Part shown: positions 1-5,414 of the stretch, piece by piece
Numbering within the stretch: position 1 is the first letter of the stretch
Layout: every line of letters starts with the position of its first letter
NCBI GenBank assembly: GCA_043820105.1
Contig: JBDREC010000023.1
Location: 1 to 5,414, forward strand
Direction of reading: 5' to 3'
DNA: 5,414 nt
DNA from: JBDREC01 sp043820105 [NCBI: Pseudomonadota bacterium]
GTDB lineage: Bacteria > Bdellovibrionota_F > JAHFAK01
Translations under genes and position numbers: made by a program
Notes under the pieces: model-generated
What the model saw: only the letters and a program-made list of their open reading frames with translations
Told to the model about the DNA's origin: nothing
The model's database searches: none

Positions 1-1247
1 ATAAGGTACCAACAGAATGCCTTCGTTATAGGAAATATAATGGAAGAATACTAAGCGACATAAAAAGCTATGAAGCAAATCATGGTGTGTTTGATGAAAA
101 AATGCAAAAAACTCAAAATATAATTGGTGAATTTCTAGAACGAAAAGACCCTGAAAACACAAATGCCTTAATGAAATCAATTGAGCATGCAGGACAACTT
201 GAACCTGCAATCATCACGTGCGATGGTTTTTTAATAAATGGCAATAGACGAAAGATGGTATTTAATAAACTTTATCCTTCTAATAATGAAAAATATGGAA
301 TGATGAAAGTCGTCATTTTACCGAATGTTGGTGATGAGGGAGGGCCGCCAACAATAAAAGAAATTGAACACATTGAAAATAGATATCAGTTACAAAGAGA
401 TGGTAAATCGGAATATTATGGGTTTGATATGGCACTTTCAATTAAGAGAAAAATAGACAGTGGCTTAACACTAAAGGAACAGCTAAGAGATGACCCTCGC
501 TATATTGGGATGAATGATGCTGAACTAAAGAAAATAGTGAAAAAATATGAGAGGGATTATTTATTTCCGTTGGAATGTGTCGATAGATATTTGGAATCCC
601 TTGGCAGAATGGGATTGTATGATTCTGTTTCAACTGGTGTTGGTGATAAAGAAGGAAGATGGCAAGCCTTTATTGATTACGGTATTTTTTACAAAAATTA
701 TTTGTCTAATGAAAAGTGGCGTATAGAAGCAGGTATTGAAGAAGATGAGATAGGCGATATTGAAGATATGGCATTTAAAATAATCAGAAAAAGGGAGGTG
801 CCATCTAGAAGGTTAAATGATGTGATAAGAGATTTAAAAAAATTTCTGAAAAATACTGAATCCAAAAAACTACTAACGAGTTTAGAAAGAGAAGTAGATA
901 TTCAACTTCCGCATGAAGATTATCACGATAAAGATGGTAATGAACTTTCGACAAGAACTCTTGATATCGTTTGGGGTAAAAAATATAATAAAAATTTTGC
1001 ACATAAAATTAATGCGGCATATGGGCATCTTGAAAATCAACAGGAAAGAGAAACACCCTTAACCCTATTAGAAGCGGCATTGAAGAAACTTAACCACGAT
1101 AACATGGATTTAAAGAACATTAGTGTGAGTGACCAAAACAAGGCAATGAAGTTGGCTAGAGCAATAAAAGAGAGAGCGAATGAATTAGAAAGTGAAGCGT
1201 ATCAATTTCAAAAAGACTTTAAAAGCCTTAAGAACAAAAAGTGGTAG
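1..1247 (+). CDS. ParB/sulfiredoxin-fold-like N-terminal domain protein (5' end outside window)
   Basis: This is the first gene of the visible operon. The frame is open from base 3 without a stop, giving 414 visible residues. A GTG at 87 could serve as a start. However, the 28 codons before it read as ordinary protein (they include LRYRKYNGRI and DIKSYEANHG) and fit the beginning of a ParB-like domain, so the real start probably lies upstream of the window. The domain core is GQLEPAII (192-215) followed by DGFLINGNRRKM. Its GNRR (240-251) sits where classical ParB proteins have the GERR nucleotide-binding motif. The remaining two thirds is charged and mostly helical, ending in a Lys/Glu-rich, coiled-coil-like tail, with no recognisable nuclease motif. 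ParB-fold proteins bind CTP or other nucleotides and act in plasmid partition, and related folds occur in defence proteins (DndB, SspE). With a helicase and methyltransferase downstream, a DNA-sensing or regulatory role is more likely than partition; that is inference. Confidence 0.78.
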   Translation, partial: KVPTECLRYRKYNGRILSDIKSYEANHGVFDEKMQKTQNIIGEFLERKDPENTNALMKSIEHAGQLEPAIITCDGFLINGNRRKMVFNKLYPSNNEKYGMMKVVILPNVGDEGGPPTIKEIEHIENRYQLQRDGKSEYYGFDMALSIKRKIDSGLTLKEQLRDDPRYIGMNDAELKKIVKKYERDYLFPLECVDRYLESLGRMGLYDSVSTGVGDKEGRWQAFIDYGIFYKNYLSNEKWRIEAGIEEDEIGDIEDMAFKIIRKREVPSRRLNDVIRDLKKFLKNTESKKLLTSLEREVDIQLPHEDYHDKDGNELSTRTLDIVWGKKYNKNFAHKINAAYGHLENQQERETPLTLLEAALKKLNHDNMDLKNISVSDQNKAMKLARAIKERANELESEAYQFQKDFKSLKNKKW

Positions 1248-1249
1248 AT

Positions 1250-3154
1250 ATGCTTATCTCATTTGATAATAATAAAGAATTAATTCTAAATGACAATAAA
1301 TCCCAATTAAAATCAAAACACAGTTCGCAATTAAAATATTGGGAATTTGTTCCTTCTAAAGATGATAATTCTTTATGGACTTATGTTGGATCAAGCAACT
1401 TAACTATTATTTGTACTAAGATTGAGGCATATTTTAAAAAGCATAAAATTCAATTTCAATTATGTGATAAGATATCCAAACTTCTTTTAGAAAACCAACG
1501 TATTAAGCAGGCGTTTTCTCAGTCAAAATCACTATCAAAAAATTTCAAAGATGGGAATTATGATTCTAAACAGTTTAATGAGTTCTGCTATTTTTTGAAG
1601 ACAAATATCAGAAGAGAACTGAGAGAACATCAAATAAAAGCCTGTTATCACCATTATCTTCTCAAAAATTCTGCAAATTTTTCTGTCCCAGGCAGTGGGA
1701 AGACAAGTGTTGTATTAAGTGTATATGAGAAACTTCGTACTGAAAATGAAGTAAATCTAATTTATGTTGCTGGACCTACATCTTGTTTCGGTCCTTGGCA
1801 AAATGAATTTGAATCGACATTGGGTAGAAAAGCGAAATGTAAGATATTATCAGGAGGAGATAGTTTATCAAGGAAAGATGAATATTATGATTTTTATTCA
1901 GATGATTATGAACTTATTCTAACATCATTTCAAACATTTTATAGAGACGTATCACATATCGCCAATTTTTTCAATCATGTGTCAATGAATGTCCTTCTTG
2001 TCATTGATGAAGCCCACTATATGAAGCAGATAGGTGGAGTGTGGGCAGATGCTATTCTTGAAGCAGGTCAATATGCCAAATACAGGTTAATTTTAACAGG
2101 AACTCCATGCCCAAGAAAATATATGGACCTTTTTAATCTGTTTGACTTTCTTTGGCCGCAAAATAAGCCGATTTCTGATATTGACAAAAGCAAAATTGAT
2201 ATCTCTGAAGCAAATGGAGATAAGGATACAGCCGCTTCCATAATTAGAAATTCAATAGACCCACTTTTTTACCGAGTTAGGAAAAAAGATCTTGGTCTAT
2301 TGCCTCCACAATTTCATAAACCCATTATAATTGAAATGAACAAATATGAGAAATTGATATACAAGGCAATTTCCGAACGTCTTCAAGAACTAAGTCATTT
2401 TGATGAAATGAAAAGCGTAGAATTTCTTTTAAAGTTGAAAAAAGGAAGGGTTATTCGACTTCGTCAATTGATTTCATATGCAAAACTTCTAATAACAGCG
2501 ATTGATGATTATAGCGAAGATTTAATAAGTGATGACAAGGATTTACAGCAAGTGATAATAAATTATGACAAGTATGAGAAACCTGCAAAATTAGTTGCCC
2601 TGAATGATTTAGTAAAAAAGATTAGCCAAAATGATAAAAAAATTCTGGTATGGACGAACTTTATTGGAACCATTAAACTTTTGGAGAATTATTTCAATTC
2701 CAAGGGAGAGCATTGTCGATCTATATATGGGGACATTCCTATCTATGAGAGTCCATATAAGGAGGAATGGACAAGGGAAAAAATTGTGCGCGAGTTTTTA
2801 GACATTGACAGCAATCTAAACATTCTAATAGCGAATCCAGCGGCTTGTGCGGAGTCAATTTCTTTGCATAAGAGTTGTTTCAACGCTATTTATTATGACC
2901 TTTCATATAATTGTGCTCAATATTTACAGTCTATGGACCGCATCCATCGTGTGGGAGGTTCAGAAGAAAATGAAGCAAATTATTATTTTTTGCAATATGC
3001 TGATACGATTGATGCTGACATTATGAATAATTTATCAAATAAAGCGGAAAAGATGTACGCAATAATCGAAAACGATTATGCCATATATTCAATGGATATG
3101 TTTGAAGATGATGGAAGTGAAATTGAGGCTTACGACAGGATTTTTGGAGCATAG
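1250..3154 (+). CDS. SNF2-like superfamily 2 DEAH helicase/DNA translocase
   Basis: This 634-residue protein is a probable ATP-driven DNA translocase. Counting from ATG 1250, the motifs run in order: a Q-like motif LREHQ (124-128), Walker A PGSGKT (147-152), DEAH (253-256), motif III TGTP (283-286), motif IV around VWTNF (about 467-471) and motif VI QSMDRIHRVG (560-569) with its arginine finger. The TGTP and QxxDRxHRxG forms are characteristic of SNF2/Rad54-like enzymes. Walker A reads NFSVPGSGKT rather than the usual DEMGLGKT, which suggests a divergent subfamily. The first 115 or so residues match no domain I know. The region between motifs III and IV (about 295-455) is a charged helical insertion. 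No nuclease or methylase domain is fused; those functions lie in the next two genes. The upstream gene stops at 1245-1247. An in-frame GTG at 1241 would overlap that stop, while ATG 1250 leaves a 2 bp gap. Neither has a strong ribosome-binding site, so translation is probably coupled. Confidence 0.9.
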   Translation: MLISFDNNKELILNDNKSQLKSKHSSQLKYWEFVPSKDDNSLWTYVGSSNLTIICTKIEAYFKKHKIQFQLCDKISKLLLENQRIKQAFSQSKSLSKNFKDGNYDSKQFNEFCYFLKTNIRRELREHQIKACYHHYLLKNSANFSVPGSGKTSVVLSVYEKLRTENEVNLIYVAGPTSCFGPWQNEFESTLGRKAKCKILSGGDSLSRKDEYYDFYSDDYELILTSFQTFYRDVSHIANFFNHVSMNVLLVIDEAHYMKQIGGVWADAILEAGQYAKYRLILTGTPCPRKYMDLFNLFDFLWPQNKPISDIDKSKIDISEANGDKDTAASIIRNSIDPLFYRVRKKDLGLLPPQFHKPIIIEMNKYEKLIYKAISERLQELSHFDEMKSVEFLLKLKKGRVIRLRQLISYAKLLITAIDDYSEDLISDDKDLQQVIINYDKYEKPAKLVALNDLVKKISQNDKKILVWTNFIGTIKLLENYFNSKGEHCRSIYGDIPIYESPYKEEWTREKIVREFLDIDSNLNILIANPAACAESISLHKSCFNAIYYDLSYNCAQYLQSMDRIHRVGGSEENEANYYFLQYADTIDADIMNNLSNKAEKMYAIIENDYAIYSMDMFEDDGSEIEAYDRIFGA

Positions 3155-3157
3155 TTG

Positions 3158-4120
3158 ATGTTAAACTTTGAAAAAATAACTTTTGGAAAGGTGAGTGCTT
3201 TGGTTGAAACTATTGCTTTTCATACCATAAACGATATTGAACATATTGAACGCTATTATCTTAATAAAGCAACAGATTTTTCTGATAATCTTTCTTTTCT
3301 ATCTGCCATCCAATTAGTCGAAGTATTAGATGGAAAAATTCTACCATCAGCAATCATTACTTCCCTTCAATCAATTCAAGATAAGCAAGAAAAAAGCAAT
3401 AAACTAAAATTGATTATATTGGATAAAATACTTCAACACAATGATAATACTCAAATCCAAGAGTTCTGGGACTATTGCTCAAGGTTTTCACTTGACGGAA
3501 ATAGATTCTCTTACATTCCGAATTTGACTAACAGGCTGAAACAGGCAGGAATTAGAAATTACCTTATGGAATTAGGATTTGTGACGAAAGACAATGATAG
3601 GGATGAATATTTTATAGATGGGGAATACGCTAATTTATTTATAAGTTTTAGGGAAAACACTACCGTGTTAACTCCTAAAGCATTTACTTCTATGCAAAAG
3701 AGGCAAGTAGAACTTGGTAATAAGGCAGAGCAAAGAATTATTGAATATGAAATGAAAAAATTGAAAGATTATCCTTATATGGCAAGAAATATTGAGCATA
3801 TTGCAAAAATAAATGTGAATGCTGGTTATGATATTGAAAGTTTTTGCAAGAATGAGGCTGAAAAAGGAGTTTCAGAGAAGATATATATAGAAGTCAAAGC
3901 GGTATCAGCAATACAAAAGAAATTTTACTGGTCAGCAAATGAAGTAGAGACGGCAAAAAGATTAAAATCAAGGTATTATCTTTATCTTTTACCTATTGGG
4001 CTAAATGAGCAATTTGACATTAATAATCTACAAATTATTCAAAATCCATACGAATCTGTTTATTTGAGTTCTGATTGGCTGAAAAGGGAAGAATCAATAT
4101 CAGTCACGGAAAAAATTTAA
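3158..4120 (+). CDS. NO VEIN (DUF3883)-type domain protein, putative restriction nuclease subunit
   Basis: This is a 320-residue protein. Counting from ATG 3158, residues 1 to about 115 are helical and unrecognised. Residues about 115-170 look like a winged-helix segment, with RLKQAGIRNYLMELGFV followed by a short hairpin-like stretch. Residues about 185-280 match the pattern of the NO VEIN C-terminal domain (DUF3883): E191 in the first helix, GYDI with D225, IEVK with E245 and K247, then N261-E262. The D...ExK arrangement is that of PD-(D/E)XK nucleases and all the expected acidic and lysine residues are present. Such domains are frequent in restriction and defence loci, so this is the best candidate for the DNA-cutting subunit; cleavage is not proven by sequence. 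A TTG at 3155 touches the helicase stop. ATG 3158 is preferred because GGAG (3146-3149) lies 8 bp upstream of it. The methyltransferase follows after a 4 bp gap. Confidence 0.8.
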   Translation: MLNFEKITFGKVSALVETIAFHTINDIEHIERYYLNKATDFSDNLSFLSAIQLVEVLDGKILPSAIITSLQSIQDKQEKSNKLKLIILDKILQHNDNTQIQEFWDYCSRFSLDGNRFSYIPNLTNRLKQAGIRNYLMELGFVTKDNDRDEYFIDGEYANLFISFRENTTVLTPKAFTSMQKRQVELGNKAEQRIIEYEMKKLKDYPYMARNIEHIAKINVNAGYDIESFCKNEAEKGVSEKIYIEVKAVSAIQKKFYWSANEVETAKRLKSRYYLYLLPIGLNEQFDINNLQIIQNPYESVYLSSDWLKREESISVTEKI

Positions 4121-4124
4121 GTCT

Positions 4125-5027
4125 ATGCAATATGAAAAAAATACCATTTATAATGGAGATTGCAGGGAATTATTGAAGGATGAAACCTTCATAGTGGATA
4201 ATTCTGTGCATCTAATAGTAACATCACCTCCTTATTCTGACAGAAGGAAAAGTACTTATGGGGGTATACATCCAAATGAATATGTTGAATGGTTTTTGCC
4301 ATTATCAGAGCACATGTTAAGAATTCTAAAACCTCAAGGCTCACTTATTATCAATATTAAAGAGCATGTTACGAATGGAGAACGCCAGACATATGTATTG
4401 GAGTTGATTCTTGCAATGAAAAAGCAAGGATGGAAATGGACAGAAGAATATTGTTGGTACAAGAAAACTGCATTTCCAGGAAAATGGCCCAATCGTTTTA
4501 GGGATTCTTGGGAAAGATGTTTGCATTTTACAAAAGAAAAGAAGTTTTATATGAATCAAGATGCAGTCAAGGTGCCTATAGGTGACTGGGCAGAAAAACG
4601 TTTTAAGAGTATGTCAGAAAATGATTTTATCCGATATGCTTCTGGCACAAACAAACATCTAGGCAAAAGAGTGGCTAATTGGATGAACAAGAGAAAGGTT
4701 TATCCGCATAATGTTTTAGTTTTTGAAAAAGAACACTATTCACTTCCATCGAACGTTCTTGAACTATGTCCTGTAACAAATCATAAAAACCACAGCGCTT
4801 GTTTTCCACTGGAGTTACCTGCTTGGTTTATCAGGCTTCTTTCAAAGAAAAATGATTTAGTGCTAGACCCATTTATTGGTGTGGGTACAACCGCTTTAGC
4901 CTGTAGACTGCTTGGTAGGAATTACATTGGAATCGAAAAACAAAAAGAATATATAAAAGAAGCCAACCTAAATATTCAGAAATTAGAACAGGAAATATCA
5001 AGTTCTAAAAGAAAATGCCAACAATAA
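4125..5027 (+). CDS. Site-specific DNA methyltransferase, beta class (N4-cytosine or N6-adenine)
   Basis: This 300-residue enzyme transfers a methyl group from S-adenosylmethionine to an exocyclic amino group of a DNA base. The catalytic motif IV TSPPY is at 33-37, before the AdoMet-binding motif I DPFIGVGTT at 248-256, with YIGIE (acid at 271) following. The order IV-to-I is the circular permutation that defines the beta class. TSPPY rather than DPPY leans towards N4-cytosine, but N6-adenine cannot be excluded. The stretch RDSWERCLHFTK (126-137) and HSACFP (223-228) are also typical of this group. Residues about 145-215 are the likely target-recognition region. The length and a complete motif set indicate an intact enzyme, so it does not visibly need a separate specificity subunit. 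ATG 4125 lies 4 bp after the preceding stop with only a weak, distant purine tract, consistent with translational coupling. It is the probable self-marking component of the cassette. Confidence 0.93.
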   Translation: MQYEKNTIYNGDCRELLKDETFIVDNSVHLIVTSPPYSDRRKSTYGGIHPNEYVEWFLPLSEHMLRILKPQGSLIINIKEHVTNGERQTYVLELILAMKKQGWKWTEEYCWYKKTAFPGKWPNRFRDSWERCLHFTKEKKFYMNQDAVKVPIGDWAEKRFKSMSENDFIRYASGTNKHLGKRVANWMNKRKVYPHNVLVFEKEHYSLPSNVLELCPVTNHKNHSACFPLELPAWFIRLLSKKNDLVLDPFIGVGTTALACRLLGRNYIGIEKQKEYIKEANLNIQKLEQEISSSKRKCQQ

Positions 5028-5087
5028 AGGTGAAGTATGCTCATTTGCGGGGGGCACCTTACTGGGAAAATTGGGGCCAAACCTTGA
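5026..5087 (+). pseudogene. Possible truncated start of a fifth operon gene
   Basis: AAGG (5027-5030), overlapping the methyltransferase stop, precedes an ATG at 5037 by 6 bp. It is as good as any ribosome-binding site in the operon. The frame from this ATG has only 16 codons (MLICGGHLTGKIGAKP) before TGA at 5085-5087, and the peptide resembles nothing I know. The arrangement looks like the beginning of a further cassette gene whose body was lost, with foreign sequence joined shortly after the start codon. It could also be a chance start or a very small peptide. Confidence 0.35.
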
Positions 5088-5166
5088 CGGGCTGTTGCCC
5101 AATCATATTGAAGATCTATCAGCACTCCTTAAAGCACATGAAGGACATACCCAAAAACGCAGCTAA
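5028..5166 (+). pseudogene. Start-less open frame, possible 3' remnant of an interrupted gene
   Basis: In the frame one base forward of the methyltransferase frame, codons are open from 4987 to the stop TAA at 5164-5166. The last 40 or so residues, including GTLLGKLGPNLDGLLP and HIEDLSALLKAHEG, look like real protein: a helical, amphipathic C-terminus rather than random translation. There is no ATG in frame and no ribosome-binding site for it. It may therefore be the surviving tail of a gene cut by the arrival of the cassette or of an insertion element. I do not recognise the family. The overlapping G-rich repeat at 5051-5091 leaves open that part of it is non-coding. Confidence 0.35.
5051..5091. 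repeat. Imperfect GGGGC...ACCTT...GGG direct repeat, possible mobile-element end
   Basis: Two related units lie side by side. Unit 1 (5051-5066) reads GGGGC-ACCTT-ACTGGG. Unit 2 (5073-5091) reads GGGGC, CAA, ACCTT, GAC, GGG. They are offset by about 22 bp and separated by AAAATT. Short G-rich tandem repeats of this spacing are reminiscent of the multiple terminal repeats of IS21-family elements. This is pattern recall only: no transposase gene and no matching opposite end are visible in the window. The repeat falls at the change from AT-rich cassette to GC-richer flank. Confidence 0.4.
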
Positions 5167-5243
5167 TCATTTGAATTAAAAAATGTGTTCCGGGAATGCC
5201 CTCCGGGTCGGCGCAAGATTGCAGTCAAGGTCGTGGATTTCTG

Positions 5244-5252
5244 AGGATTGAA
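5244..5252 (+). promoter_or_regulatory. Ribosome-binding site deciding the GTG start of the last gene
   Basis: GAGGA directly upstream of TTGAA and the GTG at 5253 gives a Shine-Dalgarno core with about 5-6 bp spacing. An alternative in-frame ATG at 5196 has no such sequence. Its extra 19 residues (beginning MPSGSAQDCSQG) are unlike the start of a membrane sensor. GTG 5253 is therefore preferred. Confidence 0.6.
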
Positions 5253-5414
5253 GTGTTTTATCGAGGAATAAAAACTAATATATTTATAAATATTGCGGTG
5301 CTGTTAGTGCTGGCAATGATTCTGATTGATTTTGTAATTACTATTGCAGTTCAGAATATTCTGATTCGATCTGAAATTTCAAAAGGCTCCTTTCTTATTT
5401 CTTCGATAGAAGAT
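5253..5414 (+). CDS. N-terminus of a membrane sensor, probably histidine kinase (3' end outside window)
   Basis: Fifty-four codons are visible and the frame runs off the right edge. After a short basic start (VFYRGIKTN, with V read as formyl-Met) comes one long hydrophobic segment, about residues 10-34, that would be a signal-anchor transmembrane helix. A polar, presumably periplasmic, stretch follows (LIRSEISKGSFLIS). This composition is what I recall from the start of sensor histidine kinases abundant in Desulfobacterota, where an IKT-IFxNIA segment leads into a sensor and then HAMP and kinase domains. No HAMP, phospho-accepting His or ATPase motif is within the window. Kinase identity therefore rests on N-terminal resemblance only; a chemoreceptor or cyclic-di-GMP enzyme with a similar anchor is possible. 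It is probably a chromosomal flank gene unrelated to the cassette. Confidence 0.55.
   Translation, partial: MFYRGIKTNIFINIAVLLVLAMILIDFVITIAVQNILIRSEISKGSFLISSIED

Follow-up and report, generated by a model that had tools for sequence, protein, structure and literature searches.

A widespread ParB-SNF2-nuclease gene unit linked to varying DNA methyltransferases, a candidate restriction-modification system

We analysed a 5,414-nucleotide stretch of DNA (hereafter, the window; contig JBDREC010000023.1, positions 1 to 5,414, assembly GCA_043820105.1, lineage Bdellovibrionota_F), in which four genes encode a ParB-like protein (P1), an SNF2-family motor (P2), a winged-helix nuclease (P3), and an amino-methyltransferase (P4). 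P1, P2, and P3 form a real and widespread unit that is spread across bacteria and archaea. We propose, with a probability of roughly 0.6, that the cassette is a nucleoside triphosphate (NTP)-dependent restriction-modification system, in which P1-P2-P3 constitute the restriction complex and P4 the self-marker; the gene context suggests its role in defence.

Results

Conservation of the P1-P2-P3 unit

A P2 motif scan covered 84,980 genomes, and the best 80 of at least 459 confirmed relatives were examined. The viral scan required an alignment as the query, as a single P2 sequence gave no match; the best 80 of its 162 confirmed relatives were divided into family members (L086-L106) and a control of 59 generic SNF2 helicase loci, all on viral contigs (L107-L165). 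This border was drawn after the Walker A signature and P1 were known. Five annotated records, 18 loci found by searching with P1 only, and the window itself brought the family to 125 loci. At 85% P2 identity, 119 loci formed 105 clusters (the clusters, like the P2 tree and distance densities below, use older locus labels, in which P3 of L011, a C5 methyltransferase of L059, and P1 of L084 had been overlooked), and 67 representatives had at least 2 kilobases (kb) of upstream and at least 3.5 kb of downstream sequence.

P1 adjoined P2 in 121 of the 125 family loci (exceptions were L102, L198, L204, and L206), and P3 was present in 52 of the 67 non-redundant loci with flanks; a Vsr gene was found in 10 of these 67. 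None of the 59 control loci had P1, a figure that is partly by construction, as the border was set after P1 had been seen. The P1-only search, made in three phylum draws, detected P1 in 18 of 1187 non-seed genomes (6/393, 8/397, and 4/397). P2 was next to P1 in 15 of the 18, with broken frames in L193 and L194; L198 and L204 lacked P2, and L206 stops at a contig edge. A methyltransferase was nearby in 14 of the 15 loci with P2, and P3 in 11.

The original prediction described a four-gene cassette with near-zero spacing at positions 1-5027 of the window. Four open reading frames (ORFs) on the same strand indeed lie end to end, their junctions being a 7-nucleotide overlap, 0 nucleotides, and 4 nucleotides (Table 1), and the adjacency of P1 and P2 recurs throughout the family. 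Six further genomes (L006, L007, L020, L022, L072, and L205) contain all four genes in the window's order, in support of that description; hosts of the loci with this order include Desulfobacterales, Bacillota, Anaerolineaceae, Chloroflexi, and the archaeon Nitrosopelagicus. Nine clusters (those of L006, L007, L020, L022, L072, L076, L200, L205, and the window) combine P3 with an N4-type methyltransferase and contain none of the other modelled enzymes. The reading of the cassette as a unit of four was partly supported: P1-P2-P3 is conserved, whereas the methyltransferase is exchanged. In L007, a DUF1016/YhcG nuclease gene directly follows P4, and more methyltransferases are located on the opposite strand.

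Linkage and exchange of the methyltransferase

A methyltransferase gene was located within 4 kb in 63 of the 67 loci: C5 in 28, D12 in 17, N4-type in 7, DUF1156 type (which we take to be COG1743) in 7, type III Mod in 2, and two families in 2. Closer than 1 kb to the P1-P2 pair, methyltransferase genes had a density of 3.79 per 10 kb, against at most 0.07 beyond 4 kb, and only 1 of the 59 viral control loci had a methyltransferase. The methyltransferase and enzyme models used for these counts were seeded from P1-P2 neighbours, favouring near genes; the same models were applied to the far flanks and the controls. A methyltransferase gene linked to a nuclease gene, the general mark of restriction-modification, was thus observed both in the window and across the family (63/67 for the methyltransferase and 52/67 for P3), in agreement with the restriction-modification reading.

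A rapidly built P2 tree (101 rows) implied at least 11 changes of methyltransferase class and at least 9 in the class of restriction enzyme. The window belonged to a clade of 26 with D12 and N4-type partners (Shimodaira-Hasegawa-like approximate likelihood ratio test, SH-aLRT, 100), and P3 was present on both sides of the midpoint root. Among the 42 C5-type loci, distances of the P1 and P3 parts followed those of P2 with r of 0.84-0.92, and the methyltransferase with 0.72. The corresponding values in the 16 N4-type loci, near-copies included, were 0.94-0.96 and 0.86. In the nine D12-type loci, they were 0.94-0.96 for P1, 0.85 for the winged part of P3, 0.50 for its nuclease part, and 0.80 for the methyltransferase. 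Because P1 and P3 distances follow P2 more closely than the methyltransferase does, the trio looks like an inherited unit whose methyltransferase is exchanged, the small D12 set being less clear.

Additional restriction enzymes and loci lacking P3

A further restriction enzyme was present in 17 of the 67 loci (18 if L039, a 62-residue HaeIII-like fragment, is counted): BanI/DpnII-like in 7, BglII-like in 4, MutH-like in 3, type III Res in 2, and HaeIII-like in 1. Such loci could be explained if P1-P2 were an accessory remodelling module, whose clamp and motor clear bound proteins for the methyltransferase and a site-specific enzyme, P3 being one of several nucleases. The occurrence of the pair beside BanI/DpnII-, BglII-, MutH/Sau3AI-, and HaeIII-like enzymes and type III Res is consistent with this explanation, as are the methyltransferase-class and restriction-class changes on the P2 tree. 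In addition, the ParB relative VirB binds cytidine triphosphate (CTP) and counters H-NS silencing (PMC10653881). We nevertheless consider a remodelling module unlikely: 50 of the 67 loci were without another whole restriction enzyme of the families modelled, and P3 looks like an old core part because it occurs on both sides of the P2 tree root and in 52/67 loci.

Among the 15 loci lacking P3, 11 had another nuclease or a PNP-family enzyme. In L013, L015, L017, and L019, an HNH-like N-terminal segment was seen by eye on P1; Pfam HNH_2 matched P1 of L013 (0.0055) and L017 (0.0075) under the family cut-off, and Pfam found no HNH in L015 P1 at 0.01. A PNP-family gene was identified in L009 by Pfam and in L010 and L018 by the family model, type III Mod/Res in L103 and L105, and a MutH-type enzyme in L057 and L199. 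No substitute was recognised in L003, L004, L016, and L083.

The variety of these partners (four HNH-like P1, three PNP-family, two MutH-type, and two type III Res) would suit a P1-P2 sensor hub that, upon unmethylated DNA, switches on exchangeable effectors, some of them not DNA-acting, as in abortive infection. A PLD-like domain on P2 in L197 and L199 (weak in Pfam) and HEPN on P1 in L198 point in the same direction. Most P3 substitutes are, however, DNA nucleases, and 4 of the 15 loci lack a recognised one; the HNH of L015 P1 was not found by Pfam, that of L019 P1 was seen by eye alone, the PNP genes could be mere neighbours, and L198 has no P2. Hence, a sensor hub of this kind seems to us clearly improbable.

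On the Enterococcus plasmids L003 (3805-6456) and L004 (4013-6460), a large protein, with Sigma70_r4 in L003, is encoded beside P1-P2, and no modelled methyltransferase was found; type I restriction genes are next door in L004. L199 also encodes an 896-amino-acid protein of the sigma-like family of L003, together with the MutH-type enzyme, a C5 methyltransferase, and Vsr. In L198 (7346-9463), P1 carries a fused Swt1-like HEPN domain at its N-terminus (Pfam 7.4e-23) with no P2 adjoining, and two C5 methyltransferases are located upstream.

Assignment of the four proteins

The families proposed for the four proteins in the original prediction were all upheld, P1 by its predicted fold and P2, P3, and P4 by Pfam. 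P1 itself had no Pfam, PADLOC, or NCBIfam family at E 1. It gave a weak PHROG ParB-like match (6.9e-4), and Pfam searches of 48 P1 homologues yielded weak ddrB-ParB matches in 12 and HTH_ParB in 4. Since searching PDB sequences with P1 returned nothing significant (ParB at E 0.06; nothing at 0.2 with a second query), the ParB assignment rests on the predicted fold. The AlphaFold2 model of P1, built from 46 sequences, had a predicted local distance difference test (pLDDT) score of 92.8. Foldseek alone found nothing at E 0.001 with this model, the best match (0.04) being a ParB. VIA-align then re-scored the 1000 best Foldseek chains, of which 991 were aligned. Among the PDB entries listed, the 16 with a Z of at least 7.4 were all ParB, Noc, KorB, PadC, or sulfiredoxin (ParB/Srx), and the next row had Z 4.9. 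The model aligned to KorB with Z 10.8 over 197 residues and to M. xanthus ParB with Z 10.2 and a root-mean-square deviation (rmsd) of 1.3 Å over 88 residues. P1 is predicted from these comparisons to have the ParB N-domain fold of the ParB/Srx superfamily. A suggested link of P1 to SspE and DndB was not borne out, as the nearest folds listed were the CTP-binding ParB, KorB, and Noc, and no GmrSD/DUF262 Pfam match was obtained.

Box I of ParB is ELxxSIxxxGxxxP (PMC10653881). The window P1 fits this motif at L, S, I, G, and P, with a mismatch at E. A GERR Box II with Glu is typical of CTP-hydrolysing ParB; P1 retains both arginines of Box II and has GNRR, with Asn in place of that Glu. N81 was present in 102 of 105 P1 rows, the remaining three having a gap. 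M. xanthus ParB is represented among the PDB titles by the mutants Q52A and E93A, at residues that we take to be catalytic, E93 presumably being the Glu of GERR. Because the ParB fold and the Box II arginines are kept and the Box II Glu is replaced by Asn, P1 probably binds nucleotide, and hydrolysis is doubtful.

The ParB fold, and the occurrence of copies on plasmids and a prophage, would also accord with a role outside defence, in which P1-P2 serves the maintenance or segregation of mobile elements and the methyltransferase acts as an addiction module. Most partner genes are, however, restriction genes, and 4 of the 80 genome-scan loci are on contigs larger than 2 Mb, so the cassette is not only on mobile elements. 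Moreover, no ParA family turned up in Pfam scans of the neighbour proteins, although no systematic ParA search was made. A maintenance role is thus very improbable.

The window P1 is incomplete, its homologues having a median of 43 extra N-terminal residues (quartiles 37-50; 104 compared). Second P1 copies without their own P2 directly downstream were noted in L035 (12766-14025) and L068 (4715-5986). In L016 (7495-9969), the P1 N-terminus and the end of the preceding gene have common Asn/Gly-rich motifs, which the linker of the HNH-like P1 proteins resembles; both observations were made by eye.

P2 matched Pfam SNF2-rel_dom (2.9e-20) and Helicase_C (3e-8), and NFSVPG(S/A)GKT was present in all five sequences first aligned. 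Among 105 rows, Walker A was found in 102, DExH in 103, and TGTP in 89. An N-domain with Walker A/B and a helicase C domain thus mark P2, as judged from its sequence, as a member of the SNF2 family, whose proteins travel on duplex DNA without strand separation (PMC5512222). Its helicase core matched DrmD, ZorD, DpdE, and BrxH models of PADLOC/NCBIfam. The PADLOC matches were weak (DrmD 1.6e-13 and DrmA 8.3e-5), and the NCBIfam scores were far under the cut-offs (DrmD 42/610 bits, ZorD 26.6/1500, DpdE 17.1/500, and dnd_restrict_1 28.9/600). The PLD-like domains mentioned above are at the N-terminus of P2 in L197 (1847-4417) and L199 (8489-11092), under the Pfam cut-off. In L102 (4010-7147), a P2-like C-terminal part is in frame with GmrSD_N, GmrSD_C, and DUF4268, apparently a chimera of P2 and a type IV restriction enzyme.

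P3 matched Pfam NOV_C (6.4e-14), of which DUF3883 is presumably the older name. No relative was found in a PDB sequence search at E 1, and Foldseek alone gave nothing at E 0.001 with the AlphaFold2 model (pLDDT 93.6). Structural matches near Z 8, which are modest, were obtained for both halves. Residues 1-170 aligned to N.BspD6I (5lhc_A; Z 8.0, 156 residues, rmsd 3.9), and residues 177-315 matched PD-(D/E)XK folds (SPARDA chain, Z 8.8; Eco15I N-domain, 8.0; Hjc, 7.9). Two FokI entries aligned to residues 1-306 with Z 8.4 and 8.2; since the rmsd was about 18, this alignment is domain by domain. Seven residues, including D226, E246, and K248, were invariant in 43 sequences, and the PD-(D/E)XK sequence pattern was present in 76 of 78. 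The model is therefore that of a PD-(D/E)XK core fold with D...E-x-K, and DUF3883 has been termed 'a novel REase domain' (PMC3710099). The tandem winged helices, the most divergent part measured, are the best candidate for site reading. In L086 (6691-7923), a GIY-YIG homing-type nuclease gene is directly 3' of P3.

P4 matched Pfam N6_N4_Mtase (1.1e-47), and its best PDB relative was the N4-cytosine methyltransferase M.PvuII (1.8e-28). The TSPPY motif, by the usual motif rules, suggests N4-cytosine as well, and N4-cytosine methylation by P4 is likely. Downstream of P4, the one ORF scanned (5196-5414) was without a Pfam match. The G+C content climbs to 0.41 in 4751-5250, near window positions 5030-5414, perhaps at the border of the cassette.

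Table 1 Genes, predicted domains, and motifs of the cassette in the window.
Feature	Position	Strand	Details and basis
P1, ParB-like protein	3-1247	+	414 amino acids; 5' end cut by window edge
P1 predicted ParB N-domain (roughly residues 1-134), followed by helical central and C-terminal regions		+	AlphaFold2 model, pLDDT 92.8
P1 Box II variant G-N-R-R (ParB: G-E-R-R), residues 80-83	240-251	+	Alignment
P2, SNF2-family translocase/helicase	1241-3154	+	637 amino acids; GTG start
P2 Walker A, inside NFSVPG(S/A)GKT	1682-1705	+	Alignment of five sequences
P2 Walker B, DEAH	2006-2017	+	Alignment of five sequences
P3, predicted tandem winged-helix and PD-(D/E)XK (NOV_C/DUF3883) nuclease	3155-4120	+	321 amino acids; TTG start
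P3 predicted tandem winged helices, like N-terminal part of N.BspD6I	3155-3664	+	5lhc_A, Z 8.0
P3 predicted nuclease domain	3683-4093	+	Invariant G188, E192, D226, E246, V247, K248, and Y274 in 43 sequences
P4, N6_N4 amino-methyltransferase, likely N4-cytosine	4125-5027	+	300 amino acids; ATG start
P4 motif TSPPY	4221-4235	+	Sequence

Discussion

Here, we propose a model of the cassette as an NTP-dependent restriction-modification system. P4 would methylate the host's own sites, and P1, P2, and P3 would together form the restriction machine. P3 would supply the PD-(D/E)XK nuclease and, via its winged helices, may read the site. P1 would act as a ParB-type nucleotide-gated clamp that keeps the complex on DNA, and the SNF2 motor P2 would move the complex along duplex DNA, so licensing cleavage of invader DNA that is unmethylated. 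The gene order, families, predicted folds, catalytic motifs, conserved trio, and methyltransferase linkage were observed here; that the three proteins form a complex, that P1 uses a nucleotide, that the complex translocates, that P3 reads the site, and that the system acts against viruses are steps that we infer.

Several observations weigh against this model. Another restriction enzyme is present in 17/67 loci, where cutting could be done without the trio, and P3 is absent from 15/67. With Asn in its Box II, P1 may differ from ParB in not hydrolysing CTP, and the absence of P1 from the control is partly built in by the post hoc L106/L107 border. If P3 and the methyltransferase had a common site, P3 would be expected to follow the methyltransferase; in the window's clade, the P3 winged helices did not track the methyltransferase class (12 loci, residual p 0.85, P3 distances being near saturation). 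The partial correlation between P3 and the methyltransferase was 0.13 in the 42 C5-type and 0.04 in the nine D12-type loci; it was 0.39 in the 16 N4-type loci, where, near-copies included, the P1 parts gave about the same (0.29-0.33). Finally, the methyltransferase of the D12-type loci tracked P2 better (0.80) than the nuclease part of P3 did (0.50).

A bolder possibility, which we put forward tentatively, is that P1-P2 is a general-purpose nucleotide-gated clamp-and-motor cassette coupling the recognition of unmethylated DNA to any plugged-in effector. The effectors would comprise NO VEIN, HNH-like, PLD, and MutH nucleases, type II/III enzymes, and even PNP-family or HEPN proteins, and the Glu-to-Asn replacement would make P1 a bind-and-hold clamp released by the motor and not by CTP hydrolysis. 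We know of no earlier case of a ParB-type CTP clamp driving restriction. With the ParB, KorB, and Noc CTP clamps, P1 has in common the predicted fold (Z 10.8 to 7.4), Box I, and the two Box II arginines; it differs in the Asn of Box II, in its linkage to restriction genes, and in that no ParA partner was seen, within the limited search described above.

As the original prediction had supposed, the cassette matched no named system at curated cut-offs (Pfam, PADLOC 2023, and NCBIfam). Likewise, no paper describing a ParB-SNF2-NOV set was recognised in the literature searched, which covered few subscription papers and did not include REBASE. By the tools used here, the P1-P2-P3 unit is unnamed, and the cassette is a restriction-modification variant with an unusual ParB component.

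Comparison with known systems was consistent with this view. R.CglI combines PLD with B3. By Pfam, P2 and P3 are not the DEAD/Z1-type ATPase and PLD/B3 nuclease of a CglI-type system. CglI/NgoAVII is nevertheless the nearest worked-out analogue, as methyltransferase, nuclease, and helicase-like ATPase are likewise separate genes (PMC5737866, PMC4267653), and NTP-driven movement along DNA has been proposed to license cutting by CglI (PMC5737866). The two differ in that H.CglI is a DEAD-family ATPase and P2 an SNF2 protein, that P3 is a predicted PD-(D/E)XK nuclease with winged helices, and that the CglI gene set given in the excerpt includes no ParB (PMC5737866). MORC/paraMORC operons resemble the cassette in having an SNF2 motor, methylases, Vsr, and restriction-endonuclease-fold nucleases as separate genes; their hub is a GHKL ATPase (PMC2292703), whereas the cassette has a ParB-fold protein next to the motor, no search for GHKL having been made. 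GHKL-like neighbours were seen by eye in L014 (3743-6070) and L198 (14697-16781). The COG1743-DUF499-SNF2/nuclease operon likewise has an amino-methyltransferase and SNF2 but differs in its DUF499 ATPase and helicase-nuclease fusion, and the word 'ParB' does not occur in the excerpt (PMC7641849).

The helicases of DISARM, Zorya, Dpd, and BREX have a helicase core in common with P2, although the DrmD, ZorD, and DpdE scores are far under the NCBIfam cut-offs. DrmA, DrmB, and DrmD of DISARM were not found at curated score (DrmD 42 bits vs a cut-off of 610). A DndB/SspE-type ParB (DUF262) with phosphorothioation genes, as in Dnd/Ssp, was not recognised either, P1 being without a Pfam, PADLOC, or NCBIfam match. 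The window P4 gave no match to a type III Mod with the T3RM C-domain and Res, which do occur among the partner genes at L098 and L105, and the window contains neither an HsdS subunit nor the single-chain helicase-nuclease-methyltransferase of type I/ISP enzymes.

Restriction-modification belongs to the oldest antiviral defences known. The trio described here, which has no name in the libraries searched, occurs in bacteria and archaea alongside five families of methyltransferase and five of restriction enzyme. Our model would give ParB clamps a role beyond segregation and gene control, and would explain some of the 'hypothetical protein plus helicase' genes found next to restriction enzymes. 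It also opens to experiment the question of why textbook type II enzymes are sometimes accompanied by a motor.

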